From Skermanella pratensis (GTDB lineage: Bacteria > Pseudomonadota > Alphaproteobacteria > Azospirillales > Azospirillaceae), in assembly GCF_008843145.1 (NCBI RefSeq), contig NZ_CP030265.1:897001-961000 (forward strand): DNA of 64,000 bases. The letters are read 5' to 3'. A program made the translations under genes and the position numbers. The stretch's first letter is position 1, and every line of letters starts with the position of its first letter. Positions 46,604-63,893 of the stretch are shown piece after piece. Below the pieces are notes generated by a model, which saw only the letters and a program-made list of their open reading frames with translations, was not told where the DNA came from and searched no databases.

Positions 46604-46702
46604 GGAAGGATCCGATCTGACGGTTGACCCAGCCACAACAGGCGTACGGCACATTCGGCGGCCCGGAAACTGGATGGCCGGCCGGGACGCGCACCCGGCG
46701 GA

Positions 46703-48625: not shown

Positions 48626-48698
48626 GGAACAGGTGGCCTTCCGGGAAGTTATTGCTGGGCACGGCGCCCCTGAATGGGGCCGAGGACAGGGCTTATCG

Positions 48699-50279
48699 AT
48701 GAACCACCGCGCCGACGATTTTATTCTGCGGGAACGGATATTTTCACGCCGAGCGTTCTTATCCGGATCCGCCGGCTTGGGAAGTGCCTTGCTGCTGTGC
48801 GGTCCCGGCATAGGGCGCAATCGTGGCATCGCAAGGGCGGAGGAAAGCTTCGGGTTCGAGCAGGTCAGGCGCATGGCGGCCGCGCTGGCGTCCCGGCCCT
48901 ACCAGCCGCCCGACGAGGTCATGCCGGCGGTGCTGCGCGACATGAGCTACGACCAGTACCGCGCGATCCGTTTCCGGCCGTCCAGCGCCCTGTGGGCCGA
49001 CGGGGGCGGATTCAAGGCGCAGTTCTTTCATCGGGGCTTCCTTTATCGGCGGCGGGTTCGCGTCGGCGTGATCGAGGGCGGTACCGTGACGCCGGTGGCC
49101 TACCGACCGGACATGTTCGACCTCGGCGGCCTCGACGTCCCGGACATGCCGGACCTGGGGTTCGCGGGGGTTCGGCTGCACCATCCCGCCGGCGGCGGGT
49201 CCACCGGCGACGAGTTCGCGGTGTTCCTCGGCGCGTCCTATTTCCGGCTGATCGCCCGGGGGCAGGAGTATGGGATTTCCGGCCGGGGGGTCGCGGTCAA
49301 TACCGGCGGCTCCGAGCCGGAGGAGTTTCCCGACTTCACGGAGTTCTGGATCGAGCGTCCGGGGGCGGGAGCGGAGGAGATCACCGTGCTGGCGCTGCTC
49401 GACGGACCGAGCGTGACCGGCGCCTTCCGGTTCCGGTTGCGGCCCGGCGACACCACCGGGGCGCAGGTCGACGCCTCGCTGATCCTGCGCCAGCCGGTCG
49501 GCCGGCTCGGTCTGGCGCCGCTGACCAGCATGTTCCTCCATGGCGAGAACGGCCCGCGCGGTTTCGACGATTTCCGGCCGGAGATGCACGACAGCGACGG
49601 GCTGCTGATGCTGGACGGCGCCGGGGTTTGGAGCTGGCGCCCTCTTGTCAACGGCCGCCCGGCGCCGCTCGCCACCGGCTACGCGATGGCCGGCCCGAAA
49701 GGCTTCGGGCTGATGCAGCGGGACCGCGACTTCGCCAGCTACCTGGATGTTCAGGCCATGCACGAGCGCCGGCCCAGCTTCTGGGTCGAGCCGCGGGGCG
49801 ATTGGGGACAGGGCGCTCTCGAACTCTACGAATTCCCGTCCCTGGAGGAGTACAACGACAACATCGTGGCCTATTGGGTGCCGCAACGGGCACCGGAGCC
49901 GGGCCGGCCGCTGGACTTCGGATACGCCCTGACCGTGATGGGCGGCGGGACCGGCCTGCATCCGCTGGGCCGTGTGACGGGCACGCGCATCGGCTCGGCC
50001 GAGCGGTTGCGGCCGACGGTGCCGCCCTCGCCGGAGCGCCGGTTCTTCGTGGTTGATTTCGAGGGGGACGGACTGCCGGGTCACGGCTCCGGCCTTTCCG
50101 CGGATGTCACCGCTTCCGCCGGCGCGGTGGTCGAGCCGATCGTCGAACATGTGCCGCAGACCGGGGGATGGCGCCTGTATTTCGAGTATCGGCCGGGGAA
50201 GGCCGGGCCGGCGGAGCTGGCGGCGCGGCTGATGCGGGGCGATCGGGTCATGACGGAGACATGGCGCTTTACCTGGTGA
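48699..50279 (+). CDS. opgG: Glucan biosynthesis protein OpgG/MdoG
   Basis: A 526-residue periplasmic protein needed for glucan branching or release. It has a Tat signal (SRRAFLSGSAGLG, about 15-45), the MdoG N-domain (PYQPPDEVMPAVLRDMSYDQYRAIRFRPSSALW), the beta-sandwich catalytic groove (FDDFRPEMHDSDGLLM, WRPLVNGRPAP) and the Ig-like C-terminal domain. The twin-arginine signal is more usual in OpgD, so it could be called OpgD-like. It is divergent from opgH. Confidence 0.92.
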   Translation: MNHRADDFILRERIFSRRAFLSGSAGLGSALLLCGPGIGRNRGIARAEESFGFEQVRRMAAALASRPYQPPDEVMPAVLRDMSYDQYRAIRFRPSSALWADGGGFKAQFFHRGFLYRRRVRVGVIEGGTVTPVAYRPDMFDLGGLDVPDMPDLGFAGVRLHHPAGGGSTGDEFAVFLGASYFRLIARGQEYGISGRGVAVNTGGSEPEEFPDFTEFWIERPGAGAEEITVLALLDGPSVTGAFRFRLRPGDTTGAQVDASLILRQPVGRLGLAPLTSMFLHGENGPRGFDDFRPEMHDSDGLLMLDGAGVWSWRPLVNGRPAPLATGYAMAGPKGFGLMQRDRDFASYLDVQAMHERRPSFWVEPRGDWGQGALELYEFPSLEEYNDNIVAYWVPQRAPEPGRPLDFGYALTVMGGGTGLHPLGRVTGTRIGSAERLRPTVPPSPERRFFVVDFEGDGLPGHGSGLSADVTASAGAVVEPIVEHVPQTGGWRLYFEYRPGKAGPAELAARLMRGDRVMTETWRFTW

Positions 50280-50934
50280 CGTCCAGTCGCCGGGCGGCCA
50301 GCCGCTCCGCCGCCGCCGTGAGGCATGCGGAGATCCGGCGCGCCACGCCGGGGCTGGTGCAGACATAGGTCGGGCTCGGGTGCGGCATGGCAAGGCAGGG
50401 GATGTTCCGGGCCTCCAGCAGGCTCCGGGCGGCCTCGGCCTTGCGCCCGGCGGTGACGACCAGTTCCAACCCCGGCAGCAGGTCCAGGAAGTCGGGCAGG
50501 TGGAGCAGCCCTTCGGCGACCTGAGCGCGGGTCGGATTGCGGTTGGGCGTGCCCGGAACCTGGATCAGCCACGGGACGATGTTCCAGATCACCGTTTCCA
50601 CACGAGCGATGCCGGCCTGTTCCAGGAAACGGAACAGGTTCGCGGCGGTCCCCGTGGGGTTGTCCCGCGACACGAACCCGGTGGCCCGCATCTTGGGTCC
50701 CGGCGTCTCCAGCAGGATCAGCAGCCGGGCCGCCACGCCGCCGTCGAGCGGGTCGGCCAGCGGAACCGGGCTGCCCGTGCGGGCGGCCAGATCCCTGGCG
50801 TACCGGGTCAGCGGCTGCACGTGCGCGCTGTCAGCCAGCGTCCTGCGCCGGGCCAGCTCGCCCGGATCGCGCAACGCCCTGGGGAGTGAAGCCCAGGGCG
50901 AGACCTGATGTGGGATTGTAATGTGGTCAGTCAA
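50269..50934 (-). CDS. Uracil-DNA glycosylase superfamily protein
   Basis: A 221-residue UDG-fold protein. LLILLETPGPKMRATGFVSRDNPTGTAANLFRF occupies the motif 1 region and HPSPTYVCTSPGVARR the C-terminal DNA-intercalation loop (usually HPSP/S). The motif 1 water-activating residue differs from family-1 UDG. It may excise damaged bases or be a nucleotide-binding relative. The only sensible start is TTG at 50934. Its 3' end overlaps opgG by 11 bases. Confidence 0.75.
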   Translation of the reverse strand: MTDHITIPHQVSPWASLPRALRDPGELARRRTLADSAHVQPLTRYARDLAARTGSPVPLADPLDGGVAARLLILLETPGPKMRATGFVSRDNPTGTAANLFRFLEQAGIARVETVIWNIVPWLIQVPGTPNRNPTRAQVAEGLLHLPDFLDLLPGLELVVTAGRKAEAARSLLEARNIPCLAMPHPSPTYVCTSPGVARRISACLTAAAERLAARRLDVTR

Positions 50935-51164
50935 TTTCGGATTTTATTTTAATTGATGTTAGGCGTTCATTAGTAGCTATAAGAATTTGAACCGCATTCC
51001 ACAAAAGGAAACATAGTATCCATATGTATATTTGGGTAGCCCGGATGAACGAAACTTCTCACCAATTGGCGAATGTCCTGTTTGGATCTGCCAACCATCC
51101 TCCGTTGCCACTGATGCGAGTTCAAAGTCGGCGCGCCCGCGCCCGACGAAATTCCGGAGGATCT
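50935..51164. promoter_or_regulatory. AT-rich divergent spacer upstream of the inositol/YcaO operon
   Basis: About 230 bases, of which 50935-51035 are markedly AT-rich against a GC-rich background. It must hold the operon promoter. A TTGAAC at 50987 followed by ATAGTA-like bases has too wide a spacing for a confident sigma-70 call. Low GC at the head of the operon may mark a recombination edge. Confidence 0.45.
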
Positions 51165-52436
51165 ATGAGCGAGATGCCTGCACGCCGTCTCGGCGTTGCA
51201 ATCGTTGGTTTGGGTGGGGCCGTCGCAACGACGGTCGCAGCCGGGCTGGAAATGATCCGCCGCGGCGCCGTCGACCTGTCGGGGTTGCCGCTGGCCGATG
51301 TCTCCCACGCCGGACTGGCGCCTTACAAGAACATCAGCCTGGCCGGCTGGGATCTTTATCCGGACGATCTCGCCTCCGCCGTCAGGCAGCACGGCGTCCT
51401 GGGGCCGGCCGAACTGGATCTGGTCCGCACCCAGTTGGAAGCGGTCCGACCCTGGCCCGCCATCGGAAACGTGAAGTTCTGCCGCAACGTCGCCGGCCGC
51501 GAGGGGGCGAACCTGACCTCCATGCGCGACCAGGTGGCGAGCCTGAAGGACGACCTGACCCGGTTCAAAGCCGACAGCGGCGTCGACGACCTGGTGGTGG
51601 TCCACCTCGCCTCGACCGAACGGCTGGTCGATACCAAGCTGCCGCAGTTCGCGACGCCGGAAGCGTTCGAGATGGCTCTCGACGCCGACGATCCGGAGAT
51701 CGGGCCGGCGATGCTCTATGCCTATGCCGCGATCACCAACGGCATCCCGTACGGAAACTTCACTCCCAGCGTCTCGGCCGACATTCCGGCGCTGAAGGAA
51801 CTGGCGCGGCGGCGCGGCGTGCCCATCGCCGGCAAGGACGGCAAGACCGGGCAGACCCTGATCAAGACCGTGATAGCGCCGGCGCTGCGCGGGCGCTCGC
51901 TGAAGGTGGACGGCTGGTACTCCACCAACATCCTGGGCAACCGGGACGGTTTGGCGCTGGACGATCCGAGTTCGCTGGCGTCCAAGCTGGACACCAAGGG
52001 ATCGGTGCTCGACAGCATCCTCGGCTACAAGGTCGAGAACCATAAGGTGTTCATCCACTACTATCCGCCGCGCGGCGACGACAAGGAGGCCTGGGACAAC
52101 ATCGACCTGACCGGTTTCCTCGGCCACCGCATGCAGATGAAGATCAACTTCCTGTGCAAGGACTCGATCCTGGCGGCCCCGCTGGTGATCGAGATCGCCC
52201 GGTGCCTGGATCTGGCGAAGCAGCGCGGACAGGGCGGCGTGCTGGAGGAACTGGGCGTCTTCTTCAAGGCGCCGCTGATGCCGAACGGTGCCGAGCCGGA
52301 GCACGCCTGGCCCGAGCAGGAGCGCCGGTTCCGGGCCTGGCTCGACAGGTCGGCCGGTTCCGGTTCCGGAACCGCCACCGAGCGCAGCGAGCAGTCCCTG
52401 AAGGCGGCCGCGGCGAGCCTTGCCGATGTCGGTTGA
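51165..52436 (+). CDS. ino1: Inositol-3-phosphate synthase
   Basis: A 423-residue NAD-dependent enzyme converting glucose 6-phosphate to 1D-myo-inositol 3-phosphate. NAD-binding VGLGGAVATTVAAG (14-27), NGIPYGNFTPS, the active-site lysine segment GKDGKTGQTLIKTV, SLKVDGWYSTNILGN, and the C-terminal FLGHRMQMKINFLCKDSILAAPLVIE are all present. GGAGG at 51156-51160 marks the start. First gene of a nine-gene operon; the HD gene starts inside its 3' end (11-base overlap). Inositol is therefore the likely scaffold of the pathway product. Confidence 0.95.
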   Translation: MSEMPARRLGVAIVGLGGAVATTVAAGLEMIRRGAVDLSGLPLADVSHAGLAPYKNISLAGWDLYPDDLASAVRQHGVLGPAELDLVRTQLEAVRPWPAIGNVKFCRNVAGREGANLTSMRDQVASLKDDLTRFKADSGVDDLVVVHLASTERLVDTKLPQFATPEAFEMALDADDPEIGPAMLYAYAAITNGIPYGNFTPSVSADIPALKELARRRGVPIAGKDGKTGQTLIKTVIAPALRGRSLKVDGWYSTNILGNRDGLALDDPSSLASKLDTKGSVLDSILGYKVENHKVFIHYYPPRGDDKEAWDNIDLTGFLGHRMQMKINFLCKDSILAAPLVIEIARCLDLAKQRGQGGVLEELGVFFKAPLMPNGAEPEHAWPEQERRFRAWLDRSAGSGSGTATERSEQSLKAAAASLADVG

Positions 52437-53321
52437 CCGGGCACTGGTCCCGCTGCTGCGGGAGGTCAACGACCTGAAGCGGGTGCGGGCCGCCGGGATC
52501 GAGGGAACTCTGGCGGCGCGTGCCTTCCGGCGCACCTGGGCCCGGCTGGTGGCGGGGGACTCCCCCGCCACCGTCGCCCTGCGGGAAACCGCACTGGCTG
52601 TGGCCGCCGCCCGGCTCGGCGGCATCGACCGCGCCATGCTGACCCGCGCCGGACTCGACGACGATTCCGCGACCGCTGTCCTTCGGAACGGCTTCGACGC
52701 GGTGGCCGGCCCGGTCGATCCGATCCTGGCGGTCACGCTGCGCGACCATCTGGGCGAGCATGAACCCGCCGCCGCCGAGCCGCCGGCCTTCGTCCACGAC
52801 CTGGAGCGGCAGCCGCGCGCGGGCGCCACCCGGCCGGGACACCCCCGGCTGGTGCTTGAGCCGCCGGAGAGCCATGCCGACCATTGCTTCGTCACGGCCG
52901 TTTCGGCGGTGCTGGTCGGCCCTTCCTACGGGGCCGACCCGGCGGGGCCGTTCCTGGCCGGCCTGTGCCACCATTTCCACAACGCCGTCCTTCCCGACAG
53001 CGGCTTCGCGGGGAGATGCTGCTGGGCGACCATCTGGACCCGGTCATCAGGACCCTGACCTACGAGATCATCGCGACGCTGCCGGACCATCTGGCCCATG
53101 CCTGCGAACAGGCCCGCAAGCTCCTGCCGCACGCGGAAACGCCCGAGGCGAAGGCGTTCCACACGGCGGACGTGATCGACCGCATCCTCCAGATGGACCA
53201 TTATGCCCGGGCCGCCGGATTCGAGCTGCGCCACGCGGTCGAGGAGATGGAACTGGTCCATGCCGGTCCGCTTCAGGACTTCCAGACAGGCATGCTGCGC
53301 AACGTCGGACTGATGCGGTGA
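52426..53321 (+). CDS. HD-domain-like protein of the inositol operon (one-base frameshift)
   Basis: About 298 residues when repaired. The first 115 residues are an all-helical domain I do not recognise. Then come HD-type metal ligands: ESHADHCF, LCHHFHNAVLPDSGFAGEMLLGDHL and a late HTADVIDRILQMDHYARAAGF. The usual HD pair is replaced by HH-F-HN. The frame breaks at the G run 53010-53013; one added G restores it. HD proteins can be phosphohydrolases (an inositol-phosphate phosphatase is otherwise missing here) or diiron oxygenases such as myo-inositol oxygenase; either would fit. It overlaps both neighbours. Confidence 0.7.
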
Positions 53322-54469
53322 CGGAAGGCCTGACCCTGCTGAGCCCGACGACCGGCCGGCCGCTGCGCGCCGAAGGTCCGGGCTATCTTGCCGACGGGAC
53401 GGAGCGCTGGCCCGTTGTGGCCGGCATCCCGTTCCTGCGCACCGGCCGCGAGGGTTTGCGCGATGCGGCGCTGGCGGCGCTCGACCGCGGCGACGAGCGC
53501 GCGGCCCTGGCGCTGCTGCTGCGCGACCAGGACGACTGGGCCCGCCTCCCGCCGCCCTCGCTGGACGCCGCCGGAGGCCTCGCCGACGCGGTCGGGCACA
53601 TGACCCTGCGCGAGACCATGGCGACGCTGAACTTCGGGCCGGTGGCCCACTACTTCGCCCACCGCTGGTCGGCCCCGACATTCCTGTCCGCCCTGGGACT
53701 GCTGGAAACCCGCTGGACCGATCCGCCGCTGGTGCTGGAAATCGCCTGCGGCATCGGACAAATCCTGCGCGACCTGAACCGGCGTGGAACGGCCGTGGCC
53801 GGGATCGACGTGGTGTTCGCCAAGCTGTGGCTGGCCAAGACTTTCCTGCTTCCCGACGCTCCGCTGGTCTGCGCCGACGTCACGTCGGGCATCCCGGTGG
53901 CTCTGCCGGAAGGGACGGCGATCCTGTGCCACGACGCCTTTTACTTCATGCCGGAGCAGGAGCGGATCGCCGGCCATCTGATGCGGGCCGCCGGAGCCTC
54001 GGGAACGGTGCTGATCGGACACGCCCACAATGTGCGGTTCGAACACGGCATCGCCGGCCGGCCGCGCACGCCGGAGGAATACGGGGCGCTGTTCCCCGGC
54101 TGCCTGCTGTACGACGACGCGGAACTGGCCCGATCCCCGGCCCCGGCCCGCACGGCGGCGGAACTGGCGACGGTCGAGGCGGTCTCGCTCGCCTGGAGCG
54201 CCGGGACGGTGGATCCCCGGCCGGTCGACCTGCGCTCGCCGCATCCCGGCGCCAGGCTTCGGCTCAACCCGCTGCTGGAGCGCGACGGGAATCGGCTGCG
54301 GCCGGCTTGGCCGACGCCCGCCTTCGCCCGCGAATACGCGGCAGCTACCTATCTGGAGGCCGAGGTGCCGCCCGAAGACCTGCCGGAAGGCACATCCCGG
54401 ATCGACGACCCCCGGATTCGGGACCTGGCCCGGCGCCGCATCCTGCTCGACCTGCCGGAGCGCTGGTGA
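53318..54469 (+). CDS. SAM-dependent methyltransferase with Trm112-like N-terminus
   Basis: A 383-residue class I methyltransferase. The SAM motif is VLEIACGIGQILRDL, with IDVVFAKLWLAKTFL and a late LCHDAFYFMPEQERIAGHLMR. Residues 1-35 (TLLSPTTGRPLRAEGPGYLADGTERWPVVAGIPFL) copy the Trm112/zinc-ribbon pattern but lack its cysteines. It starts with GTG in a GTGA overlap with the HD gene's stop, and its own stop overlaps the next ATG (TGATG). It probably methylates an intermediate of the pathway; O or N cannot be told. Confidence 0.82.
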   Translation: MTEGLTLLSPTTGRPLRAEGPGYLADGTERWPVVAGIPFLRTGREGLRDAALAALDRGDERAALALLLRDQDDWARLPPPSLDAAGGLADAVGHMTLRETMATLNFGPVAHYFAHRWSAPTFLSALGLLETRWTDPPLVLEIACGIGQILRDLNRRGTAVAGIDVVFAKLWLAKTFLLPDAPLVCADVTSGIPVALPEGTAILCHDAFYFMPEQERIAGHLMRAAGASGTVLIGHAHNVRFEHGIAGRPRTPEEYGALFPGCLLYDDAELARSPAPARTAAELATVEAVSLAWSAGTVDPRPVDLRSPHPGARLRLNPLLERDGNRLRPAWPTPAFAREYAAATYLEAEVPPEDLPEGTSRIDDPRIRDLARRRILLDLPERW

Positions 54470-55470
54470 TGACGGACCGGCATCTGGGCTGGGCCGTGGT
54501 CGGGTGCGGCTGGGTCGCCCGCGATTACGTCATCCCGGCGATCCACGCGGCGCGGAACGGCCGCGTCGTGGCGCTGTGCGACCGCGACCCGTCGGGGCTG
54601 GGCAGCCTCGGCACCTCGGACCTGGCGGTCGTGCTGTCCGATCCCGCCGTCCAGGCCGTCTATGTCGCGACGCCCAACGACCAGCACATGCCGGTGGTCG
54701 TGGCCTGCGCCGCCGCCGGCAAGCATGTCCTGTGCGAGAAGCCGATGGCCACGCATTCGGCCGACGCGGAGATCATGGTCGCCGCCTGCGGGCAAGCCGG
54801 GGTGACCCTGGGCATCGCCTACGACCAGCGCTTCCACGCGGCGCATGTCCGCCTTCGGGAACTGGTGGCGGAGGGGGCGCTCGGCACGGTGACCCAGGCC
54901 CGCATCTTCTACGCCTGCTGGCTGCCCCCGGACTGGAGCCCCACGGATCGGACTTCCGGCGACCGGCATACCGACAACTGGCGGGCGGACCCCCGCCGGG
55001 CGGGGGGCGGCGCCCTGTGGGACCTGGCTCCCCACGGCATCGACCTGCTGGAGGTGCTGCTCGGCGGCTCCTGGGCGGAGCTTCGGGCCCTGGTCCAGCG
55101 GCGGGTCCATGATTATGCCGTGGATGACGGAGCCGTGCTGACCGGCCGGTTCGAGGACGGGACGCTGTGCACCATCCAGGTCGCCTACAACTGCCCCGAC
55201 GCCTATCCCCGGCGGACGCTGGAACTGGTCGGGACCCGGGCGATGGCGGTCGCCACCGACACCATGGGCCAGACGCCCGGCGGCACCCTTTCCCTGATCG
55301 ACGCCAGGACCGGCGCGCGTTCCGAAGTGCCGGTCCCCGGTGCCGGGCGAAGCCCGTTCCTGAACCAGATCGAGGCGTTCGGCGACGCCGTCCTGGCCGG
55401 CCGTCCCTTTCCCTATCCCTCCGAGCGCGACCTGCGCCTGTTCACCCTGATGGAGCGATCATGCCGCTGA
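54469..55470 (+). CDS. Gfo/Idh/MocA family NAD(P)-dependent oxidoreductase
   Basis: A 333-residue dehydrogenase: Rossmann motif VVGCGWVARDYVIPAI, VATPNDQHMPVVVACAAAGKHVLCEKPMATH with the family's EKP lysine, then GGGALWDLAPHGIDLLEVLLGG with the catalytic-site D-x-x-x-H. The family includes myo- and scyllo-inositol dehydrogenases, which fits a pathway that starts with inositol phosphate synthase. The next gene starts 10 bases before its end. Confidence 0.9.
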   Translation: MTDRHLGWAVVGCGWVARDYVIPAIHAARNGRVVALCDRDPSGLGSLGTSDLAVVLSDPAVQAVYVATPNDQHMPVVVACAAAGKHVLCEKPMATHSADAEIMVAACGQAGVTLGIAYDQRFHAAHVRLRELVAEGALGTVTQARIFYACWLPPDWSPTDRTSGDRHTDNWRADPRRAGGGALWDLAPHGIDLLEVLLGGSWAELRALVQRRVHDYAVDDGAVLTGRFEDGTLCTIQVAYNCPDAYPRRTLELVGTRAMAVATDTMGQTPGGTLSLIDARTGARSEVPVPGAGRSPFLNQIEAFGDAVLAGRPFPYPSERDLRLFTLMERSCR

Positions 55471-56294
55471 CCCAGTATGCCTGCTCCCACTGCGGGTTCT
55501 GGCAACCCTGGTTTGCCGGGCAGGACCCGATCGGCTGCCCGGTCTGCATGGACGTGCGGAACGCCCTGCCGCCGGACGGCTGGGACTTCCGCACGGTCGA
55601 GGACCTGACCGGAAAGGTCACCACCCGCTGGGCCGAGGCGATGCCCGGCATCGTGGGGTTTTCCTGCGAACCGGCGTTCGGCCTCGGCTCGACCGGCTGG
55701 CTGCTGCTCCGCGACGAGGGCAACATCGCCTTCGAGGGTGCGCCGTTCTATACGCCGGAGGCGCTGGACGAGATCGAGCGGCTGGGCGGCATCGGCATCC
55801 TGGCGGGCTCCCATCCCCACGGGTTCGGCGCGCTGTGGCAACTGGCCGAACGGTTCGACCCGGTCGTCGTGATCCACCGCGACGGGCTGCGCTACACCAA
55901 GGCGTTCCGCGTTTCCTGGCCGTCCGACGACGTCCACGCGCTGGCGCCCGGCCTGACCATGATCGCGACCCAGGGCCACTACGAGGGCCATGCCGTGCTG
56001 CACGACACCCGCGACCGGGCGCTGTTCTGCGGCGACTGCCTGAAGGTGGACCTGGACGGCGAGGGCCGGCCCGTGGCGCTGAGCTGCCACAAGGGCTTCC
56101 ACTACCAGATCCCGCTGAGCCACGACGAGGTGCGCCGCTACCGCGCCGTCTTCGCCGAGCTGGATTTCGACCACGTCTTCACCCCGTTCGAGCACGCCGC
56201 CGGCGTCACTCGCGCCCACGCGCTGGGCTTGTTCGACCGCCTGCTGGCGGGAGCGCCGAGCACCCGCCCGATCCCGCTGGAGAGCCTCGCATGA
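55461..56294 (+). CDS. Zinc-ribbon metallo-beta-lactamase-fold protein
   Basis: A 277-residue protein. Two CxxC pairs (C8/C11, C26/C29) form a rubredoxin-like ribbon, followed by an MBL fold. In the fold, H118-P-H120-G-F-G replaces the normal HxHxDH, so the D and third H of the first motif are missing; H173/H177 (TQGHYEGHAVLH), D192 (FCGDC) and a late FEH remain. This suggests a one-metal or altered site. Role unknown; it could be a hydrolase or a redox partner. It overlaps both neighbours by 10 and 4 bases. Confidence 0.82.
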   Translation: MPLTQYACSHCGFWQPWFAGQDPIGCPVCMDVRNALPPDGWDFRTVEDLTGKVTTRWAEAMPGIVGFSCEPAFGLGSTGWLLLRDEGNIAFEGAPFYTPEALDEIERLGGIGILAGSHPHGFGALWQLAERFDPVVVIHRDGLRYTKAFRVSWPSDDVHALAPGLTMIATQGHYEGHAVLHDTRDRALFCGDCLKVDLDGEGRPVALSCHKGFHYQIPLSHDEVRRYRAVFAELDFDHVFTPFEHAAGVTRAHALGLFDRLLAGAPSTRPIPLESLA

Positions 56295-57751
56295 GCCTGC
56301 AACCCGTCATCGAGGCCTATACCGCGAACCTGCCGCCGGGCGAGCTGGAGCATTTCCGGGTGGACGGGCTGGATCGCATCGGCGTGCCGGTCGTGTTCGC
56401 CTGCCACCGGCAACGGGACGGGGCTCAGTTCGACAGCTTCGGCTATGGCGCGAGTTTCGACCAGGCGCTGGTCGGCGTGCTGGGCGAGCTGGCCGAGAAT
56501 GTCCAGGCCGACTCGGTCCTGCGGAAGGCGGAGCGGGTGCGCGGCAGCTACCGCGACCTCGTGGCAGCGCGCGGGGAACGCGGCGTCTGCGACCCGCTGA
56601 CCCTGTGCCTGCCGGCCGGCTCCGACTATACCCCGGACAAGTTGCTGACCTGGGTGGCGGCGCGGCGCTTTCCCTCGGGCGAGCCGGTTCTGGTGCCGTA
56701 CGAGTTCGCCGCCTGCTACCGGTCGCAGCTGGACGGCATCGAGCCTCTGACGACGCCGATCACCAACGGGCTGGGCGCCGGCGACAGCTTCGAGCGGGCG
56801 CTGGTCCACGGGCTTCTGGAACTGCTCCAGCGCGACGGCAACTGCATCGGCTTCCGCGCCATGGACCAGGGCCGCGTGCTCGACCTGTCCGGCGTGCGCG
56901 ATCCCGACACGCTGCGGCTTCTGGCGCGCCTGGACGAGCTGGGCATCGACGTGATCGCCAAGCTGGCCGCGACGGATTTCGGCTTGGTCAACCTCTATGT
57001 CGTGGGCTCCGACCGCGACGGGCGCTCGACCGTGCCGATCATGCAGACCGCCTGCGGCGAGGCTTGCGACCTGGACCGCGAGCGGGCGCTGAACAAGGCC
57101 CTGCTGGAGTTCTGCTCCAGCCGGTCGCGCAAGGCCATGTCCCACGGCCCGCTGGATCTCGTCGGGCGCATCGCTCCCGAAGGTTACCTGGACCGCTACC
57201 GCGCCCGCCACGTCGCCGGCGCCGAGGAGCCGCGCGCGGTCGAGGCCATGGCCGCCTGGTGCGAACTCCCGTCCGGCGAACTGCGCGGGATGCTGTCGGA
57301 CACCGTGCTGTCGCGGCGGACGACCGAGGCTTTCGCCGACCTGCCGTCCTCGCCCGCCGACACTCCCGCCGAGCGGCTGGAGCGGATCTCCGCCATCCTC
57401 ACGACGGCGGGATTCGACATCCTCTACCTGGACCTGTCACCGCCCGACGGCGCGATTTCCGCCGTCAAGGCGATCGTGCCGGGGCTGGAGTGCGAGACCA
57501 TGAGCTATCACCGAATCGGCGAGCGCGGCATCCGCCGCCTGATGGAGCGGGGCAGCCCCCTTGCCGGCGTCGGGACCCCGCCGGACGGGGCCGCCGCCGT
57601 GCCGCTGCCGCCCGATGCGGTCGAGCGGCTGGGCGGTCCGGGCTGGCTCGACGCCGCCGGCATCGACCGGATCGTCGGCCCGCTCTACCCGCTGTACCGC
57701 GAGCCGGAAAGCCACGCCGTCCGCTTCGCGCTCGAAGCGGCAAGATCCTGA
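56291..57751 (+). CDS. Stand-alone YcaO-domain protein
   Basis: A 486-residue YcaO protein. ATP/Mg-binding features are visible: E66/E69 (LGELAEN), TNGLGAGDSFERALVHGLLELLQRD (E177 kept, second Glu replaced by Q180) and the R-rich DRERALNKALLEFCSSRSRK. There is no proline-rich PxPxP C-terminus. No E1-like/ocin-ThiF, TfuA, SagB dehydrogenase or precursor peptide is nearby. YcaO enzymes activate amide or carboxyl groups with ATP; a few act on small molecules (6-thioguanine). Here it likely modifies a small molecule, inferred from context. A 26-base gap precedes the next gene. Confidence 0.88.
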   Translation: MSLQPVIEAYTANLPPGELEHFRVDGLDRIGVPVVFACHRQRDGAQFDSFGYGASFDQALVGVLGELAENVQADSVLRKAERVRGSYRDLVAARGERGVCDPLTLCLPAGSDYTPDKLLTWVAARRFPSGEPVLVPYEFAACYRSQLDGIEPLTTPITNGLGAGDSFERALVHGLLELLQRDGNCIGFRAMDQGRVLDLSGVRDPDTLRLLARLDELGIDVIAKLAATDFGLVNLYVVGSDRDGRSTVPIMQTACGEACDLDRERALNKALLEFCSSRSRKAMSHGPLDLVGRIAPEGYLDRYRARHVAGAEEPRAVEAMAAWCELPSGELRGMLSDTVLSRRTTEAFADLPSSPADTPAERLERISAILTTAGFDILYLDLSPPDGAISAVKAIVPGLECETMSYHRIGERGIRRLMERGSPLAGVGTPPDGAAAVPLPPDAVERLGGPGWLDAAGIDRIVGPLYPLYREPESHAVRFALEAARS

Positions 57752-57777
57752 AAAGAACAAAGCCGAGAGGCCCGGAC

Positions 57778-58668
57778 ATGCCCCTGCGTTTCGCCTACAA
57801 CACCAACGGCGCCGCCAACCACCGGCTGGACGACGCGCTCACCCTGATCGCCGACAGCGGCTATGACGGGGTGGCCCTGACCCTGGACCATCATCATTTC
57901 GACCCGTTCGCCCCGGACCTGGAGGGCAGGGCGGAGGCCTTGGGATCGCGTCTGCGCAGCCTGGGGCTCGGCCTCGTGATCGAGACGGGCGCGCGCTACC
58001 TGCTCGACCCCCGCGTCAAGCACGAGCCGACCCTGCTGAATCCATCGGCCGAAGGGCGTGCCCTCCGCGTCGACTTCCTGACCCGCTGCGTCCGGATCGC
58101 GGCCATCTGCGAGGCGGAGGCCGTCTCCTTCTGGGCCGGCGTGCCGCAGCCGGGCGTCGTTCCCGCGACCGCCTGGGACTGGCTGGTCGAGGGCGTCGCC
58201 CAGGTCGCCGAGGCGGCGGCCGCGGACGGCGTCACCGTTGCGCTGGAGCCGGAACCCGGCATGCTGGTGGAGACCGTGGACGATTACGGCAGGCTCAGGG
58301 CCGACCTGGCGGAGCGCACGCCGGCACCGCTGCGCCTGGCGCTCGACACCGGTCACCTGCTGGTCACCGGCGAACGCGATCCCGCCGCCGCCGTGGGGGA
58401 GTTCGCCGGCGACCTCGGCACCGTCGCGATCGAGGACATGCGCCGGGGCGTCCACGAGCATCTCCCCTTCGGCCGGGGCGACATGGACATCCCGGCCGTG
58501 CTGGCGGCGCTGGACGCGATCGGGTTCGACCGGCTGGTCTGCGTCGAGCTGTCGCGGGAGAGCCACCGTGCCCACCTCGCCGTTCCCGAAAGCCTCCGGT
58601 GGCTGGAATCGCGGCTTCCCGCCGCGTCCGGCCAATCCCTTCGCCAAGCTTTTCGCCGGAGTGCCTGA
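57778..58668 (+). CDS. Sugar-phosphate isomerase/epimerase-like TIM barrel
   Basis: A 296-residue xylose-isomerase-like (AP_endonuc_2) barrel. Metal ligands are suggested by E (TVALEPEPGML), D-x-GH (LALDTGHLLVTGE), D/H (AIEDMRRGVHEHLPFGRGDMD) and a final E (VCVELSRESHRA). The family includes the inosose enzymes IolE and IolI, consistent with inositol-ring chemistry, and also EboE. The ATG at 57778 follows GAGAGG; the frame stays open upstream through the YcaO gene, but that is not used. Confidence 0.85.
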   Translation: MPLRFAYNTNGAANHRLDDALTLIADSGYDGVALTLDHHHFDPFAPDLEGRAEALGSRLRSLGLGLVIETGARYLLDPRVKHEPTLLNPSAEGRALRVDFLTRCVRIAAICEAEAVSFWAGVPQPGVVPATAWDWLVEGVAQVAEAAAADGVTVALEPEPGMLVETVDDYGRLRADLAERTPAPLRLALDTGHLLVTGERDPAAAVGEFAGDLGTVAIEDMRRGVHEHLPFGRGDMDIPAVLAALDAIGFDRLVCVELSRESHRAHLAVPESLRWLESRLPAASGQSLRQAFRRSA

Positions 58669-58671
58669 CCC

Positions 58672-59943
58672 ATGCGGATCTGCTTCATCAGCCGGCGCTT
58701 CTTCCCCGCGATCTCGGGCATGAGCGTCTATGCCGCCAACCTGCTGCGCGAACTGGTGGCCGGCGGCCATGACGTCGTGATGATCTCCCAGTACCGCAAC
58801 GACCCGGCGGGCTCCGCCGTCTACGGCGGCGGCCCGCCGCCCGCGGTGCCCGGCGTCAAGGTGATCGGGCTGGAATCCCTGGGCGAGCAGGAGGTCGGCC
58901 ACGGCCGTCCGGCCGATTTCGAAGCCGACATGGAGGCGATGGTCGCCACGGCCCTGGCCGAACATGCCGCCGAGCCGTTCGACCTGGTCCACGCCCAGTA
59001 CGGGTATCCCTGCGGCCTTGCGGCGCTGGAGGTCAGCCAGCGGCTGGACATCCCGAACGTCGTGTCGATCCAGGGGGGCGACGGCCACTGGGTCGGCACC
59101 TGCTGCGCCACCCACAAGCAGGCCATGCTGGCGGTTCTGAACCATGCCGGCGCCCTGATCATCGGCAGCAAGAGCTTCGCCGAGGAGGTCCGCGACCACC
59201 ACGGCACCGACCTCGACCGCTTCGTCATCGTGCCGGGCGCTACCGACACCGAGCGCTTCCGTCCCCGGGCCGACCGCGACATCGGCGACCTGCAGGACGC
59301 TCCGGTGCTGCTCTACCACGGCCGCGTCGACCGCCGTAAAGGCGTGATGGAACTGCTCGACGCCTTCGCCCGGCTTCGGGAGGCGAGACCCACGCTGCGG
59401 CTGATCGTCTCGGGCATCGGGCCGGACGTGCAGGCGGTACGGGAGCGGGCATCCTCCGCGGAGTTCGCCGGGGCGGTGACCCTGACCGGCCATGCCGATT
59501 ATTTCGCCGCCGCCGAGGTCTACCGCCGGGGCGACGTCTTCGTCTCGCCCACATACTCGGAAGGCTTCTCCAACACCATCCTGGAGGCCATGGCGAGCGG
59601 CCTGCCGATCGTCTCGACCAATGCCGTCGGCGTGGTCGATTGCCTCACCGACGGCTCCAACGCCCTGCTGGTGGAACCGCGCGACGTGGACGGCCTGGCA
59701 TCCGCGATCGGCCGGATGCTCGACGACGGAGCCTTGCGCCGGCGGCTGGCCCACCAGTCCCTGGAGGAGGTCCGCAGCCTCTATTCCTGGCACGCGATCG
59801 GCCGCCGCATCCAGGAAATCTATGCCCAGGTCCGGGGAACGAGGCCGGACACCACCTGGACCGGCACCTATGATCCGGCCGCGGTGACGCGGGAGACCGC
59901 CGATCCGACCTGCCGGTTCCGGGCGGCCCCGCATCTGCTTTAG
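58672..59943 (+). CDS. GT4 family glycosyltransferase (MshA-like context)
   Basis: A 423-residue GT-B enzyme: N-domain SRRFFPAISGMSVYAANLLRELVAGGHDV, middle LVHAQYGYPCGLAALEV, sugar-nucleotide site VLLYHGRVDRRKGVMELLDAF and EGFSNTILEAMASGLPIVSTNAVG with the E-x7-E motif. In mycothiol synthesis, GT4 enzyme MshA joins GlcNAc to inositol 3-phosphate; the same operon here supplies that acceptor and a PIG-L deacetylase. Donor and acceptor are thus inferred. It starts 3 bases after the TIM-barrel stop. Confidence 0.88.
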   Translation: MRICFISRRFFPAISGMSVYAANLLRELVAGGHDVVMISQYRNDPAGSAVYGGGPPPAVPGVKVIGLESLGEQEVGHGRPADFEADMEAMVATALAEHAAEPFDLVHAQYGYPCGLAALEVSQRLDIPNVVSIQGGDGHWVGTCCATHKQAMLAVLNHAGALIIGSKSFAEEVRDHHGTDLDRFVIVPGATDTERFRPRADRDIGDLQDAPVLLYHGRVDRRKGVMELLDAFARLREARPTLRLIVSGIGPDVQAVRERASSAEFAGAVTLTGHADYFAAAEVYRRGDVFVSPTYSEGFSNTILEAMASGLPIVSTNAVGVVDCLTDGSNALLVEPRDVDGLASAIGRMLDDGALRRRLAHQSLEEVRSLYSWHAIGRRIQEIYAQVRGTRPDTTWTGTYDPAAVTRETADPTCRFRAAPHLL

Positions 59944-59972
59944 ACCTGCCCATACCAGAGGAGGCGCCCCAC

Positions 59973-60748
59973 GTGCCGTCACGCGCAGCGCTGTTCATCT
60001 CCCCCATCTCGACGACGTCGCCTTTTCCTGCGCCGGGACGCTGGCCATGCTCAAGGCGGCGGGCTGGCGGACCGTGCTCGCCACCGTCTTCACACGGTCG
60101 GTGCCGAGTCCCACCGGGTTCGCGCTCGCTTGCCAGACCGACAAGGGCTTGGCTCCGGAGGTGGACTACATGGCGGTCCGGCGGGAGGAGGACGCCGCGT
60201 TCGGGCGGACGCTGGGAGTGGACGAGGTCCACTGGCTCGACCTGCCCGAGGCGCCGCACCGGGGCTACGGCTCCGCCGTCGAACTCTTCTCGGCCATCCG
60301 GCCGGGGGACGAGGTCTGGCGGGAGGCGGCACACCGGATCGGCGCTCTTGCCGACCGGGTCGAGCCGGACCTGATGTTCGCCTGTCAAGCGATCGGCAAC
60401 CATGTGGACCACCGGCAGACCGTCAGGGCGATGGTCCGCCTGGGCCGGCCCGCCGCCTGGTACAGGGACCTTCCCTACGTGATCCGGGCTCCGGAAGAGG
60501 CGCCGCCGCCGGGACTGCCCGGCGGGCTGGTGCCGCTGGCGATCCCCGTCTCCGACCATCTCCCGGCCAAGGTCGCCGGGGCCTGCTGCTACGCCACCCA
60601 GCTTCCTTTCCAGTTCGGCGGGGCGGACCGGGTCGGTTCGGCGCTGACGTCCTTCGCCGCCTACGAGGCGGGAAAGGCCGGCCGGGCCGGCCATGCCGAG
60701 CGCTTCCTGATCGACCCCCTTGCGGCCAAGTCCGTCAGTTCTGCATGA
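59973..60748 (+). CDS. PIG-L/LmbE family deacetylase (one-base frameshift)
   Basis: About 258 residues when repaired. The start is GTG at 59973 with GAGGAGG eight bases upstream. The C run 60001-60005 needs one more C: then FISPHLDDVAFSCAGTLAML gives the zinc motif (P-H-x-D-D) in frame with the rest, including the second histidine motif NHVDHRQ. PIG-L enzymes remove N-acetyl groups from GlcNAc-inositol conjugates (MshB in mycothiol). Last gene of the operon; its end overlaps a convergent membrane-protein gene by 14 bases. Confidence 0.85.
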
Positions 60749-61034
60749 CGCCGGTGCCGGGGGCCGCCGCCTGCGCCGCCGCCGACCGGCGCCGCAGCCA
60801 GACGGTCAAGTAGGTGCCAAGGCAGCCGCCGGCGCACATGAACAGGATGTAGACCGAATTCTCGGCGTACTGGACGACCACGGCGGCGCTCAGCATGTGC
60901 CAGACGAAAGCCAGCACCGCGGCCATTTCCGCCTGCATCGAGACGATGTAGTAGGTGTAGCGTGCGTAAAGGAAATCCAGCGCGAACGCGGACAGGAAGA
61001 CGGCGGCGGCGATCGTCGGGCTGATGTCGAACAT
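60735..61034 (-). CDS. Small three-helix membrane protein, unknown
   Basis: A 99-residue protein with three hydrophobic helices (about 5-22, 35-52 and 58-82) and a basic C-terminal segment (WLRRRSAAAQAAA). I do not recognise a family. The ATG at 61034 is preferred to 61157, because the longer N-terminus is low in structure. It is divergent from the pseudo-receiver gene. Confidence 0.65.
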   Translation of the reverse strand: MFDISPTIAAAVFLSAFALDFLYARYTYYIVSMQAEMAAVLAFVWHMLSAAVVVQYAENSVYILFMCAGGCLGTYLTVWLRRRSAAAQAAAPGTGVMQN

Positions 61035-61185
61035 GGCTGCGGGCTTTGCGAAAGATGTTGTCCTGGAGACTGCCCGCGGGTTATCGCGCATTAAGGTTAA
61101 CTCTAAGTAAACTACGGCGGCGTGATATGTTGCCGTCCGGCGGGTTATGGTTGACAACCCACCTCCGGAGCCCGATCACCGATCC

Positions 61186-61590
61186 ATGAGAATACTGCTG
61201 CTAGAAGGCGACCTCATTCTGGCTGAAGCCGTTGCGGAGGCCTTGCGCGGGGCCGGATACGACCCGATCGGCCCCGTCACCGAAGTGGATGAAGCCATCA
61301 CCCTGGCGGAACAGTTCCGCCCCGATCTGGCGCTGATCAACATCGACCTTCCGGCCGGGCGCGGGCTGGGCGTCGTTGTCGCCCGGACGATCGCCCGCAA
61401 CTGGAACATCAAGTCGCTGTTCACCGCGGGCGACAAGGAGATCGCGCGGCGGAACCGCGACGTCGCCTTCGGATACCTCGCCGGTCCCGCGACGGTCAGC
61501 GAACTGGTCGAATGCATCGAGGCGATCCGGCTGATCCGCAAGGGGGAGTTCCCGATGCGGATCCCGAAGCGGCTGTCGCCGTTCCTGTGA
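61186..61590 (+). CDS. Pseudo-receiver domain protein
   Basis: A 134-residue receiver fold (MRILLLEGDLILAEAVAEALRGAGY; LALINIDLPAGRG; SLFTAGD; FGYLAGP). The phospho-acceptor Asp is replaced by N52 and the conserved Lys by G100, while T80 and the fold remain, so it cannot be phosphorylated in the normal way. Either 61186 or the in-frame ATG at 61147 may be the start; neither has a good ribosome-binding site. No output domain. Confidence 0.8.
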   Translation: MRILLLEGDLILAEAVAEALRGAGYDPIGPVTEVDEAITLAEQFRPDLALINIDLPAGRGLGVVVARTIARNWNIKSLFTAGDKEIARRNRDVAFGYLAGPATVSELVECIEAIRLIRKGEFPMRIPKRLSPFL

Positions 61591-61601
61591 CGGAGCCTAT
61601 G

Positions 61602-61612
61602 CTGCGCCGCAG
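61602..61612. promoter_or_regulatory. PhaR-type box 1 (CTGC-N3-GCAG)
   Basis: CTGCGCCGCAG, an exact match to CTGC-N3-GCAG, about 85 bases upstream of the next small gene. Such sites bind the polyhydroxybutyrate-responsive repressor PhaR in Rhodobacter. Confidence 0.5.
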
Positions 61613-61667
61613 CAAAAGCGTCGTTTTGTCACAATCCCGATGGGCAGGTCTGCGCTTATCGTGTTTG

Positions 61668-61678
61668 CTGCATTGCAG
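61668..61678. promoter_or_regulatory. PhaR-type box 2 (CTGC-N3-GCAG)
   Basis: CTGCATTGCAG, a second exact match, extended to TGCTGC...GCAGCA on both sides, 19 bases before the start of the small gene. Two boxes 66 bases apart in one leader suggest a real operator pair. Confidence 0.55.
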
Positions 61679-61696
61679 CATAACGCGAGGTATCCG

Positions 61697-61915
61697 ATGC
61701 TCGTCACGCTCTCGATGGTGTTTTGCCTGATCGCCGATCCGACCCAGTGCCGGACGGTCACTCCCCTGATCTCCGACGACCAGTATCTCACCATGTCGAA
61801 CTGCCCCATCGCGGGGCAGACCGAGGGAGCCCGGTGGGTCGGCGAGCATCCGAATTACCGCATGACCCGTGTGCGCTGCCAGATGGGGAACAAACCGAAA
61901 GAACGGAGCGCCTGA
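61697..61915 (+). CDS. Small Cys-containing protein, unknown
   Basis: A 72-residue protein beginning with a hydrophobic stretch (LVTLSMVFCLIADPTQC) and containing four cysteines (at about 9, 17, 34 and 60) that could form disulfides. GCGAGG six bases before the ATG marks the start. It is short but has a clear ribosome-binding site and two PhaR-type boxes upstream. Function unknown. Confidence 0.7.
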   Translation: MLVTLSMVFCLIADPTQCRTVTPLISDDQYLTMSNCPIAGQTEGARWVGEHPNYRMTRVRCQMGNKPKERSA

Positions 61916-61929
61916 TTCCGCCGGCCTGT

Positions 61930-61964
61930 ACACCCTCGCCGGCGCGTTCCGCCGGCGAGGGTGT
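61930..61964. terminator. Hairpin between convergent genes
   Basis: Perfect 14-base arms (61930-61943 and 61951-61964) with a seven-base loop. No T tract. It is placed to end both the small gene (+) and the EF-hand-like gene (-). Confidence 0.6.
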
Positions 61965-61985
61965 CCTGGATCAGGTCGTGACGGA

Positions 61986-62825
61986 TCAGGTCGTGACGTT
62001 GATGCTGATCGCCGCCGTAGTGCCGGTCGAGATGCTGCCGGACAGCAGGTTCAGGCTGACATTCGTGGTCATGCCGGGCGTCCCGTTGTCGTAGGACGTG
62101 CTGATCACCGATGCCGACTTGCCGTCGCTGGTCAGCGCCATGAAGCGCTTGGGATCGATCGCGATGTTGTTGGCGGTGGTGGTCGAGTTGTCCGCCGCGG
62201 TGAAGGAGCGCAGCGAATAGGTGTTGGTCACGCCGCCGTCCGCCGAAGTCAAGTCGAAGAAATCCGACATCTTCAAGCCGCGTGTCCCGAAGCCGAACAG
62301 TTCGGACTCGTTGTTAAGGAAGCCGTCGGCGTTGACGTCGTAGCCCAGCATGGTCTGGGAGTTGAAGCCGCCGAACTTGTCGGCCGCCGACTTGTACGCG
62401 TCGTACGCACGCGACTGGAAGGCGTCGAGGTACTTCTGCTTCGTCGTCGGGTCGGTGATCCAGGTGGGATCCTCCGCGGTCGGGTAGGCGCCCTGCTTCA
62501 ACTCCAGGAAGACGGCGGAGTCCATGGTGTCGAAATTGACCAGCGAGCCGAACTTGGCGGCGTTGTCGCTCGTCAGGTTCGTGGCGGTGACCGAGATGTC
62601 GCCGTTGAGCTTGCCGCTGCTGTAATCATAGGAGAGCGCGTTGCCCAGGGTGGAGAACTTCTGCTCCTTGACCGCGGTTCCGCTCTCCGTGAACTTGGCG
62701 GCGGCTTCCGCCTGCCGTTCCGGCGTCAGGGAGTCCCAGATCCTCTTGCGGTCGTCCGTTGCGAGCCGCAGGTTCGAGAGATACCCGGAAGGCATGCTGG
62801 CTGCGGTTGCCGAGGTCGTAGACAT
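61986..62825 (-). CDS. EF-hand-like protein of unknown function
   Basis: A 279-residue acidic, Ser/Thr/Asn-rich protein without cysteine or signal peptide. At about residues 165-180 is a calcium-loop-like YDVNADGFLNNESELFGFG. The N-terminus (SGYLSNLRLATDDRKRIWDSLTPERQ) is helical and the C-terminus is beta-rich, ending in AAISINVTT, as in some type I secreted or surface proteins. The ATG at 62825 has GGAG at good spacing. Possibly secreted; this is inference. Confidence 0.65.
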   Translation of the reverse strand: MSTTSATAASMPSGYLSNLRLATDDRKRIWDSLTPERQAEAAAKFTESGTAVKEQKFSTLGNALSYDYSSGKLNGDISVTATNLTSDNAAKFGSLVNFDTMDSAVFLELKQGAYPTAEDPTWITDPTTKQKYLDAFQSRAYDAYKSAADKFGGFNSQTMLGYDVNADGFLNNESELFGFGTRGLKMSDFFDLTSADGGVTNTYSLRSFTAADNSTTTANNIAIDPKRFMALTSDGKSASVISTSYDNGTPGMTTNVSLNLLSGSISTGTTAAISINVTT

Positions 62826-63088
62826 CGCCCACTCTCCAATCCTATGCGTTCTGCGTCGGACCAATGCAAATGGTGTGCCTCAGTTTTCGATGCACGGCGC
62901 AAGAGTATAACAAGCGCCGCGGATTCGCAAGGGAGACCGGAGCCGGCTATTCCTGCTACCCGCCGCGGCAAGTCTTGCCGGGCCACTCGCGGTCCGGGCG
63001 GCGCTGTTTGCCGGGTCGGGGGAACCGGAACCGCTCGACGCTGTTGCGATGTACGACCCTCAGGTTCATCGAAGGCCGCTCCCCCGCC

Positions 63089-63886
63089 ATGCCCGCGCCC
63101 AGTGCGAAACGATCGTCGGTGCCGTTCAGCCCAAGCTTCCGATGGGCCGGATACCTGCTGGGCTTTGCCTTCGGCGGGTTCTTCGACGGCATCCTGCTGC
63201 ACCAGATCCTGCAATGGCACCATCTGCTGAGCGGACTGGACAGTCCCGCGCTGGCGGACATCCAGGTGCAGATCCTCGCCGACGGCCTGTTCCATCTCGC
63301 CATGTACGCGGTCGCCGGGGCGGGGCTCTGGCTGCTTTGGCGGACCCGGCGGGAGTTCGGCGGGGACGGAGCGGACAGGCTGCTGTTCGGCACCTTTCTG
63401 ATCGGCTTCGGCGTCTGGCATATCGTGGACGCCGTCCTGAACCACTGGATCCTTGGACTGCACCATATCCGCATGGACAGCGACAGCCCGCTGATCTGGG
63501 ACATGGTCTTCTTCGCGTTCGGGATCGCGGTGACTGCCGCCGGGTGGCTGACCCTGCGGAGCGGACCGAACGGCGGGGGAGGGCGGAGCAGAGGGGGCCT
63601 GGCGGCATCCGTGCTGACCCTGGCCGTCGTGATCGCCGGCCCCGTGGCGCTCCTGCCGCCGGCCGGCGTATCGACGGTGACGGCGCTGTTCCCGCCTGGC
63701 ACCGCTCCCGGAGCGGTGCTGGCCGCCGCGGCGACCGTCGACGGCCGCGTGATCGCGGGCGCCGACGGGGTCTGGATCATCGACGTGCCGGACAGACTCC
63801 GGGCGCTCGCGCTGTACCGCGAGGGCGCCGTCCATGTGGGCGGATCGCTCTTCCCGATCGGCTGCTTCTCGGCCGGGCTGTCGTAA
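63089..63886 (+). CDS. DUF2243 membrane protein
   Basis: A 265-residue membrane protein with the DUF2243 signature GYLLGFAFGGFFDGILLHQILQWHHLLSG and WHIVDAVLNHWILGLHHIR: four helices with many membrane histidines, suggesting metal or haem binding. The C-terminal 90 residues add a fifth helix and a small periplasmic-like domain (PAGVSTVTALFPPGTAPGAVLAAAATVDGRVI) that resembles TlpA-associated/heme-export tails. Start ATG 63089 lies in GC-rich DNA without a clear ribosome-binding site. Confidence 0.82.
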   Translation: MPAPSAKRSSVPFSPSFRWAGYLLGFAFGGFFDGILLHQILQWHHLLSGLDSPALADIQVQILADGLFHLAMYAVAGAGLWLLWRTRREFGGDGADRLLFGTFLIGFGVWHIVDAVLNHWILGLHHIRMDSDSPLIWDMVFFAFGIAVTAAGWLTLRSGPNGGGGRSRGGLAASVLTLAVVIAGPVALLPPAGVSTVTALFPPGTAPGAVLAAAATVDGRVIAGADGVWIIDVPDRLRALALYREGAVHVGGSLFPIGCFSAGLS

Positions 63887-63893
63887 GCCGGGC

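Follow-up and report, generated by a model that had tools for sequence, protein, structure and literature searches.

Gene content and layout of the operon

The window, by which we mean the whole 64-kb stretch of Skermanella pratensis DNA analyzed here (from a genome of 5.87 Mb, one contig), carries an operon of nine genes between positions 51165 and 60748. A preliminary description, made from the sequence letters, had placed on the forward strand of this segment, in order, genes for an Ino1-type inositol-3-phosphate synthase, an HD-like protein, a methyltransferase, a Gfo/Idh/MocA oxidoreductase, a zinc-ribbon metallo-beta-lactamase (MBL)-fold protein, a stand-alone YcaO, a xylose-isomerase-like TIM barrel (TIM below), a GT4 glycosyltransferase, and a PIG-L deacetylase; Pfam and NCBIfam bore out all nine families, in those places and on that strand. 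The five overlaps and the gaps of 3-29 bases claimed for the genes were also recovered from the computed gene limits, which (with the coordinates given below) yield overlaps of 11, 4, 1, 10, and 4 bases followed by gaps of 26, 3, and 29 bases.

The Ino1 protein (51165..52436; Pfam NAD_binding_5 and Inos-1-P_synth) aligns over its length with solved inositol-phosphate synthases (E 1.9e-80), and scores 37 against the mycothiol-specific model, for which the cut-off is 638. The HD-like protein (52426..53321) is a candidate inositol-phosphate phosphatase. No Pfam model matched its two pieces in the window, but its intact counterpart in a Skermanella relative (L007) scored 24.2 bits against the HD_3 cut-off of 22.5, the Hymenobacter counterpart falling below it at 14.5; in a 12-sequence alignment, residues H150, H153, H182, H183, and D249 are invariant. 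The protein also weakly matches (E 0.007) a hypothetical protein of solved structure that we read as an HD hydrolase, and several of the invariant residues align with its presumed metal ligands. A phosphatase is our default guess, and the protein may alternatively be an oxygenase. The S-adenosylmethionine-dependent methyltransferase (53318..54469) was recognized by Pfam Methyltransf_11, and the Gfo/Idh/MocA oxidoreductase (54469..55470), which is nearest to 1,5-anhydrofructose reductases, keeps the EKP and GGxxxDxxxH motifs. The MBL-fold protein (55461..56294; Pfam Lactamase_B) begins with a four-cysteine zinc ribbon, and residues C8, C11, C26, C29, H118, and H120 are invariant in six sequences. 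The metal motif of this fold is HxHxDH; the operon protein retains HxH, whereas the following D and H are changed. It scores weakly with hydroxyacylglutathione hydrolases.

The YcaO protein (56291..57751; Pfam YcaO, E 1.6e-54) gave a single match when used as a query against its own genome. Its best solved match is the MJ1094 chain (E 3.5e-16), which we take to be a member of the thioamide-forming YcaO group, over an alignment that presumably spans the nucleotide-site region. Among NCBIfam models, the SagD-type azoline model scored 120 bits and the McrA-glycine thioamidation model 101 (cut-off 365), both below cut-off. A C-terminal PxPxP, the mark of azoline-forming YcaOs, is not present in the window protein. 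The TIM gene (57778..58668) belongs to Pfam AP_endonuc_2. The closest solved structures to the GT4 protein (58672..59943; Pfam Glycos_transf_1, with an ExxxxxxxE motif) include MshA and PimA; it matches the MshA and BshA models far below their cut-offs (98.4 versus 462.5 bits for MshA). The PIG-L gene runs from an inferred start to 60748 (about 59973..60748, the Pfam PIG-L match covering 60047-60748); its HxDD motif is kept in 5/5 relatives checked, and among solved structures the intact protein of one relative lies nearest to pseudoaglycone deacetylases.

In this genome, the HD and PIG-L genes each contain one frame change (near 53010 and 60010, respectively), and both reading frames are intact in all five relatives checked. 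Overall, frame changes were flagged in 9 of 42 window open reading frames (ORFs) relative to one relative, none of them operon genes, and in 12 of 42 relative to a second, operon genes accounting for two; the script left operon genes unflagged in the first comparison, so its list is incomplete, and a small number of flags could be spurious. Eight places were common to both comparisons (near 2560, 8561, 12360, 20840, 30290, 32440, 40905, and 62840), the ORFs being open in both relatives. Elsewhere in the genome, the top match of the MshC model, presumably a cysteinyl-tRNA synthetase, is likewise split over two overlapping frames. Because frame changes occur throughout the window and in this presumed synthetase, the HD and PIG-L breaks are probably sequence error rather than decay. 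Pseudogene decay was rejected as the first choice on the same grounds, and the frame changes point to a poor-quality assembly.

Conservation of the nine-gene block

Of 59 relatives, six have a YcaO match, namely all five Skermanella genomes and Aerophototrophica crusticola, and in each of these the nine genes stand in the same order. A plasmid of Roseomonas haemaphysalidis also carries all nine genes in order. In Methylobacterium, 108 of 111 genomes have a YcaO match. We fetched 27 Methylobacterium loci around that match, 20 of them from well-assembled genomes among the 108, and eight genes, without the MBL, were found in order in every one (7 + 20). The three negative genomes differ from one another. 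G748 has TIM, GT4, PIG-L, and a uracil-DNA-glycosylase (UDG)-like gene at a contig end, and its negative is therefore an assembly gap; in G773, the UDG-like gene is present and the MBL is matched strongly, but the 20 kb read around the former contain no operon gene; and G754 has no UDG match and a weaker MBL match. Outside the phylum, a plasmid of Hymenobacter volaticus (Bacteroidota, an isolate from air) carries all but the methyltransferase, eight genes in total, with Gfo/Idh annotated as two pieces.

Across the class, in searches that scored the best few candidates per genome only, YcaO was found in 2 of 376 genomes and TIM in the identical two, our own genome and one Methylobacterium; in the phylum sample, YcaO was found in 6 of 349, our own genome and five Methylobacterium. 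Searching plasmids with GT4 at E < 1e-60 returned four records, which are also the top four YcaO records. The YcaO copies on these four plasmids are 46-50% identical to that of the window, the next match being 29% (best 30 of 100 records). Independent scatter of the genes among relatives, which the preliminary description had named as the outcome to look for against a single unit, was thus not seen for YcaO and TIM in the 376 genomes; on plasmids, the pair YcaO and GT4 showed none either. The MBL behaves differently: a more weakly related zinc-ribbon MBL occurs without the other eight genes at ten loci (L028 8827-9648 and L029-L037) from several alphaproteobacterial families. In Methylobacterium, the MBL lies outside the stretch around the operon in 20/20 loci, and 27 of 28 genomes, G773 included, have a strong MBL match elsewhere.

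Conservation of the block in Skermanella, Aerophototrophica, and Roseomonas, and of most of it in Methylobacterium and Hymenobacter, supports the earlier proposal that the nine genes are one unit and not a chance neighborhood. In our best reading, the operon, found across two phyla, is a biosynthetic unit spread by horizontal transfer. A Methylovulum YcaO was considered as a further operon relative and rejected: it is 24% identical, lies within a 744-residue protein, and has neighbors that, judged from the ORF list and with no family search made of them, are unlike the operon. Viral contigs were also searched with TIM, and none of the 36 pattern matches was confirmed.

Pairing of Ino1 and TIM in ebo regions

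The plasmid search with TIM returned 33 records, the four operon records plus 25 from Streptomyces, two from Embleya, and one each from Nonomuraea and Gemmatirosa. Nine of the 29 non-operon regions were read (L113-L121; eight actinobacterial and the Gemmatirosa one), and all are ebo (eustigmatophyte-bacterial) regions: Ino1 lies near the TIM gene in 9/9, alongside EboC, EboB, EboE, and EboF, and EboA was matched in eight, Gemmatirosa being the exception. The window TIM is 46-57% identical to the TIM genes of these regions. When 12 operon loci were searched at E 1e-3 for ebo genes, EboA, EboB, EboC, EboE, and EboF had no match, and only Ino1 and TIM did. That Ino1 and this TIM subfamily are common to two otherwise different operons argues that TIM may act on an Ino1-derived ring, the two genes forming a putative shared cyclitol module; the accompaniment of TIM by Ino1 in every ebo region read also favors the inositol chemistry put forward in the preliminary description. 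According to excerpts of the published work, ebo is a proposed isoprenoid-cyclitol maker that is needed to move the scytonemin monomer in Nostoc (PMC5133447, PMC6282210), and it is linked there to the sunscreen scytonemin (PMC6282210). Two of the ebo regions (L113 and L115) have a ScyD/ScyE-like gene and a multicopper oxidase gene nearby. The Ino1-TIM module is a new handle on the ebo product.

A stress-type promoter-like site in Methylobacterium

Of 20 Methylobacterium loci sampled, 14 have the sequence GGAAC-N17-GTT 5' of ino1, as compared with a mean of 0.34/20 (maximum 4) for random windows of the same loci; note that the upstream sequences are related, and these counts are not independent events. 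Other spacings of GGAAC-GTT, from 10 to 25, gave no match in the 20 upstreams, and shuffled upstreams gave 0.50/20 for a looser pattern. The remaining six loci have GGAAC-N17-ATT at a similar position. With the pattern widened to GGAAC-N17-[GA]TT, a post hoc change made after the data had been seen, all 20 loci match, against a random-window mean of 0.42 (maximum 3) and 0-2/20 at other spacings. Among the seven further Methylobacterium loci, four have the GTT form and two the ATT form, and L046 is without a site. The site resembles the EcfG motif given for Sphingomonas melonis, GGAAC-N17-20-GTT (excerpt of PMC6599016), and the corresponding excerpt for M. extorquens gives an EcfG consensus of GAAC-N16,17-C/GGTT (PMC4814048). 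An EcfG-type site was also sought in the 400 bases 5' of ino1 in the Skermanella copies, and was absent; in the window, the stretch that separates the UDG-like gene from ino1 (50935..51164) has none. Judged by these upstream sequences, a link of the operon to the general stress response appears good in Methylobacterium and is without support elsewhere.

Neighboring genes

The UDG-like gene (50269..50934, reverse strand; Pfam UDG) is a possible tenth member of the operon. It is divergent from and beside ino1 in 5/5 Skermanella, and in Methylobacterium it follows PIG-L on the same strand at 25 of 27 loci (6/7 + 19/20). Its subfamily occurs in 5 of the 59 relatives, which are exactly the five Skermanella, in six of eight Methylobacterium genomes checked (including G773), and in none of three sister-genus genomes. 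Because the gene takes up two different arrangements around the same operon, these data suggest that it is functionally tied to the operon, though not universally.

Further out, window positions 46703-50279 hold an mdoH-like glucosyltransferase gene (reverse strand) and mdoG (forward strand), both of osmoregulated glucan synthesis, and this pair adjoins the operon in 5/5 Skermanella and in Aerophototrophica; a formate/nitrite transporter gene (45773-46654) lies past them. On the Roseomonas plasmid, a gene annotated mdoH follows PIG-L, and two spore photoproduct lyase genes (L050 14798-16919) lie one gene off PIG-L, close to repA and repB. There were no Rfam matches in window positions 48000-64000, and PADLOC gave no match for the four proteins tested. 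The near-core status of the operon in Methylobacterium, its stress-type promoter there, the UDG-like neighbor, the ebo link, and the frameshifts all go beyond the preliminary description.

Proposed product and alternative explanations

On balance, we lean toward the view that the operon product is an intracellular, stress-linked small molecule, inositol-based, carrying glucosamine, and finished by the stand-alone YcaO. The gene families, the conserved block, the Ino1-TIM pairing in ebo regions, and the promoter site in Methylobacterium are the observations on which it is built. In such a pathway, Ino1 would make inositol 3-phosphate, from which the HD protein would remove the phosphate; TIM and Gfo/Idh would isomerize or epimerize and oxidize the inositol ring; GT4 would attach N-acetylglucosamine (GlcNAc), from which PIG-L would then strip the acetyl group to leave a free amine; the methyltransferase would cap an oxygen; and YcaO, with ATP, would activate the oxygen of a carbonyl or enol, which an amine or sulfide would then displace. 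There is no transporter among the nine genes, and the product therefore probably remains intracellular, where it would be a protectant; near-core presence in Methylobacterium argues in the same direction.

Several observations weigh against this view or parts of it. What is shown are the families and their linkage, every substrate being inferred, and GT4, Gfo/Idh, TIM, and the PIG-L of a relative all fall well short of the curated cut-offs for named enzymes. In the HD protein, HH stands in place of HD, which makes phosphatase activity uncertain. The absence of the methyltransferase from Hymenobacter implies that this enzyme may be non-essential, and the same may be true of the MBL, since in Methylobacterium it stands apart from the operon and is present in the operon-negative G773. 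Pairwise distances of Ino1, YcaO, TIM, GT4, and PIG-L agree among ten taxa (Mantel r 0.79-0.95), which speaks for a single unit, but that agreement is in part shared ancestry only. Only one of the 20 Methylobacterium upstreams matches the M. extorquens EcfG consensus strictly, and neither form of the site was found upstream of the five Skermanella copies or of those in Aerophototrophica, Roseomonas, Hymenobacter, and Methylobacterium L046. Finally, the UDG-like gene was not found in Aerophototrophica or in the operon genome G536, and in G774 it is far from the operon.

Among the alternatives, the one that survives best, although we consider it unlikely, is an ultraviolet-A (UV-A) screen made by mycosporine-like logic. 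Gfo/Idh and TIM would make an enolized cyclohexenone from inositol, the methyltransferase would form the enol ether, and YcaO would activate the vinylogous carbonyl. Attack on it by the amine of glucosamine would yield an enaminone or imine that is polar and absorbs UV-A. Mycosporine synthesis uses ATP-grasp enzymes, and YcaO would here replace them. The near-universal presence of the operon in Methylobacterium (YcaO in 108/111) fits a screen, as do the stress-type promoter in that genus, the UDG-like gene adjoining the operon, the two spore photoproduct lyase genes near the Roseomonas copy, and the isolation of the Hymenobacter carrier from air; the other carriers presumably come from air, soil crust, or leaves. 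The chromophore chemistry is speculative, however, and Hymenobacter lacks the methyltransferase; moreover, ebo regions pair TIM with Ino1 without Gfo/Idh in the operon core, so that the TIM substrate need not be an inosose. UVA-absorbing compounds, including methylobamine, are reported from Methylobacterium in the excerpts of two papers (PMC9664959, PMC12573535), but nothing ties them to the operon genes, and the open-licence literature contained no UV link to these genes among the matches listed. Taken further, this idea becomes a sunscreen route independent of mycosporine and scytonemin genes, with its ring from inositol rather than sedoheptulose 7-phosphate and its nitrogen-bearing UV-A chromophore made by YcaO rather than an ATP-grasp enzyme, which would be under general-stress regulation in Methylobacterium, paired with a UDG-like repair enzyme in two genera, and passed among light-exposed bacteria of two phyla. 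As a joint claim, this is unlikely; if true, it would explain the UVA-absorbing compounds reported from that genus.

We regard it as quite improbable that the product is a sulfur-based redox buffer or cofactor, i.e., a glucosaminyl-inositol as in mycothiol to which YcaO would add sulfur as a thioamide or thio-sugar, with the MBL acting on conjugates. Ino1, GT4, and PIG-L do parallel Ino1, MshA, and MshB, the best solved match of YcaO is MJ1094, and the weak hydroxyacylglutathione hydrolase scores would suit the MBL. The McrA-glycine thioamidation model also matches, at 101 against its cut-off of 365, although it is outscored by the azoline model (120 bits, again below cut-off). None of the nine genes is for sulfur delivery, MshC exceeded its cut-off in none of six operon genomes, and 8 of 10 had no TfuA.

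It is very unlikely that GT4 and PIG-L decorate an envelope glycan or lipid, e.g., osmoregulated periplasmic glucan, with the inositol genes supplying a substituent. The neighborhood is suggestive, as mdoG and mdoH adjoin the operon in the Skermanella and Aerophototrophica genomes and the Roseomonas operon is followed by an annotated mdoH, but neither gene was matched in seven Methylobacterium loci or the Hymenobacter locus, and the nine genes include no flippase, polymerase, export, or membrane gene. We also know of no glycan role for a stand-alone YcaO. An exported aminoglycoside-like antibiotic is highly improbable: although the Ino1 and Gfo/Idh enzyme types also open the hygromycin A aminocyclitol route (excerpt of PMC10949010), the nine genes include no transporter, resistance gene, or aminotransferase, and a typical antibiotic cluster would not be present in nearly every genome of a genus.

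With the glucosamine-bearing, inositol-based protectant as the favored product, a near-core operon of Methylobacterium would be making a metabolite of which we found no description among the matches listed from the open-licence literature, using a YcaO without a peptide partner. Methylobacterium is a common leaf-dwelling genus that includes the model organism M. extorquens, and the routine genetics of the latter make the role of the operon directly testable.

Comparison with known systems

The open-licence literature gave no published account of the operon among the matches listed, and no paper containing both "Methylobacterium extorquens" and "YcaO" was found there. One paper mentions both YcaO and Methylobacterium, and in its excerpt YcaO comes up in connection with an azoline cluster of Roseomonas mucosa.

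The mycothiol route consists of Ino1, MshA, MshB, MshC, and MshD, and the operon resembles it in bringing the Ino1, GT4, and PIG-L families together in one pathway. It differs in that Ino1 and GT4 score far below the mycothiol models and that YcaO, TIM, Gfo/Idh, MBL, HD, and methyltransferase genes are added. As the preliminary description had concluded, mycothiol itself is ruled out, no MshC being over cut-off in any of six operon genomes searched; note that the MshC model also matches in 13 of 14 controls, in one of them over cut-off.

The hygromycin A aminocyclitol route, as far as the excerpt of PMC10949010 describes it, shares the logic of an inositol-phosphate synthase, a phosphatase, a Gfo/Idh inositol dehydrogenase, and a methyltransferase. 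The operon, in contrast, has a YcaO and no inosose aminotransferase among its nine genes (the rest of the genome was not searched for one), and the amine would come by GT4 and PIG-L.

The likeness to loci for ribosomally synthesized and post-translationally modified peptides (RiPPs), and to those for thioamidation of McrA or of ribosomal proteins, is the YcaO family itself. The operon differs from them in that TfuA is lacking from most operon genomes (8/10, our own included), the PxPxP tail is missing, and the gaps of at most 29 bases leave no room for a precursor peptide gene between operon genes, no dedicated search having been made outside. In the two operon genomes that have TfuA, it lies on another contig (L142, contig 46 of G029; L143, contig 24 of G004). 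A RiPP locus was thus not supported, in keeping with the earlier judgment that this is no standard RiPP locus.

With ebo, the operon shares Ino1 beside one TIM subfamily, and it differs by the five Ebo proteins that had no match in its loci. The operon is therefore neither mycothiol, ebo, nor a standard YcaO locus. We take it to be a form of inositol-derived biosynthesis, and the non-peptide setting of its YcaO makes for a real chance that it is something more unusual.

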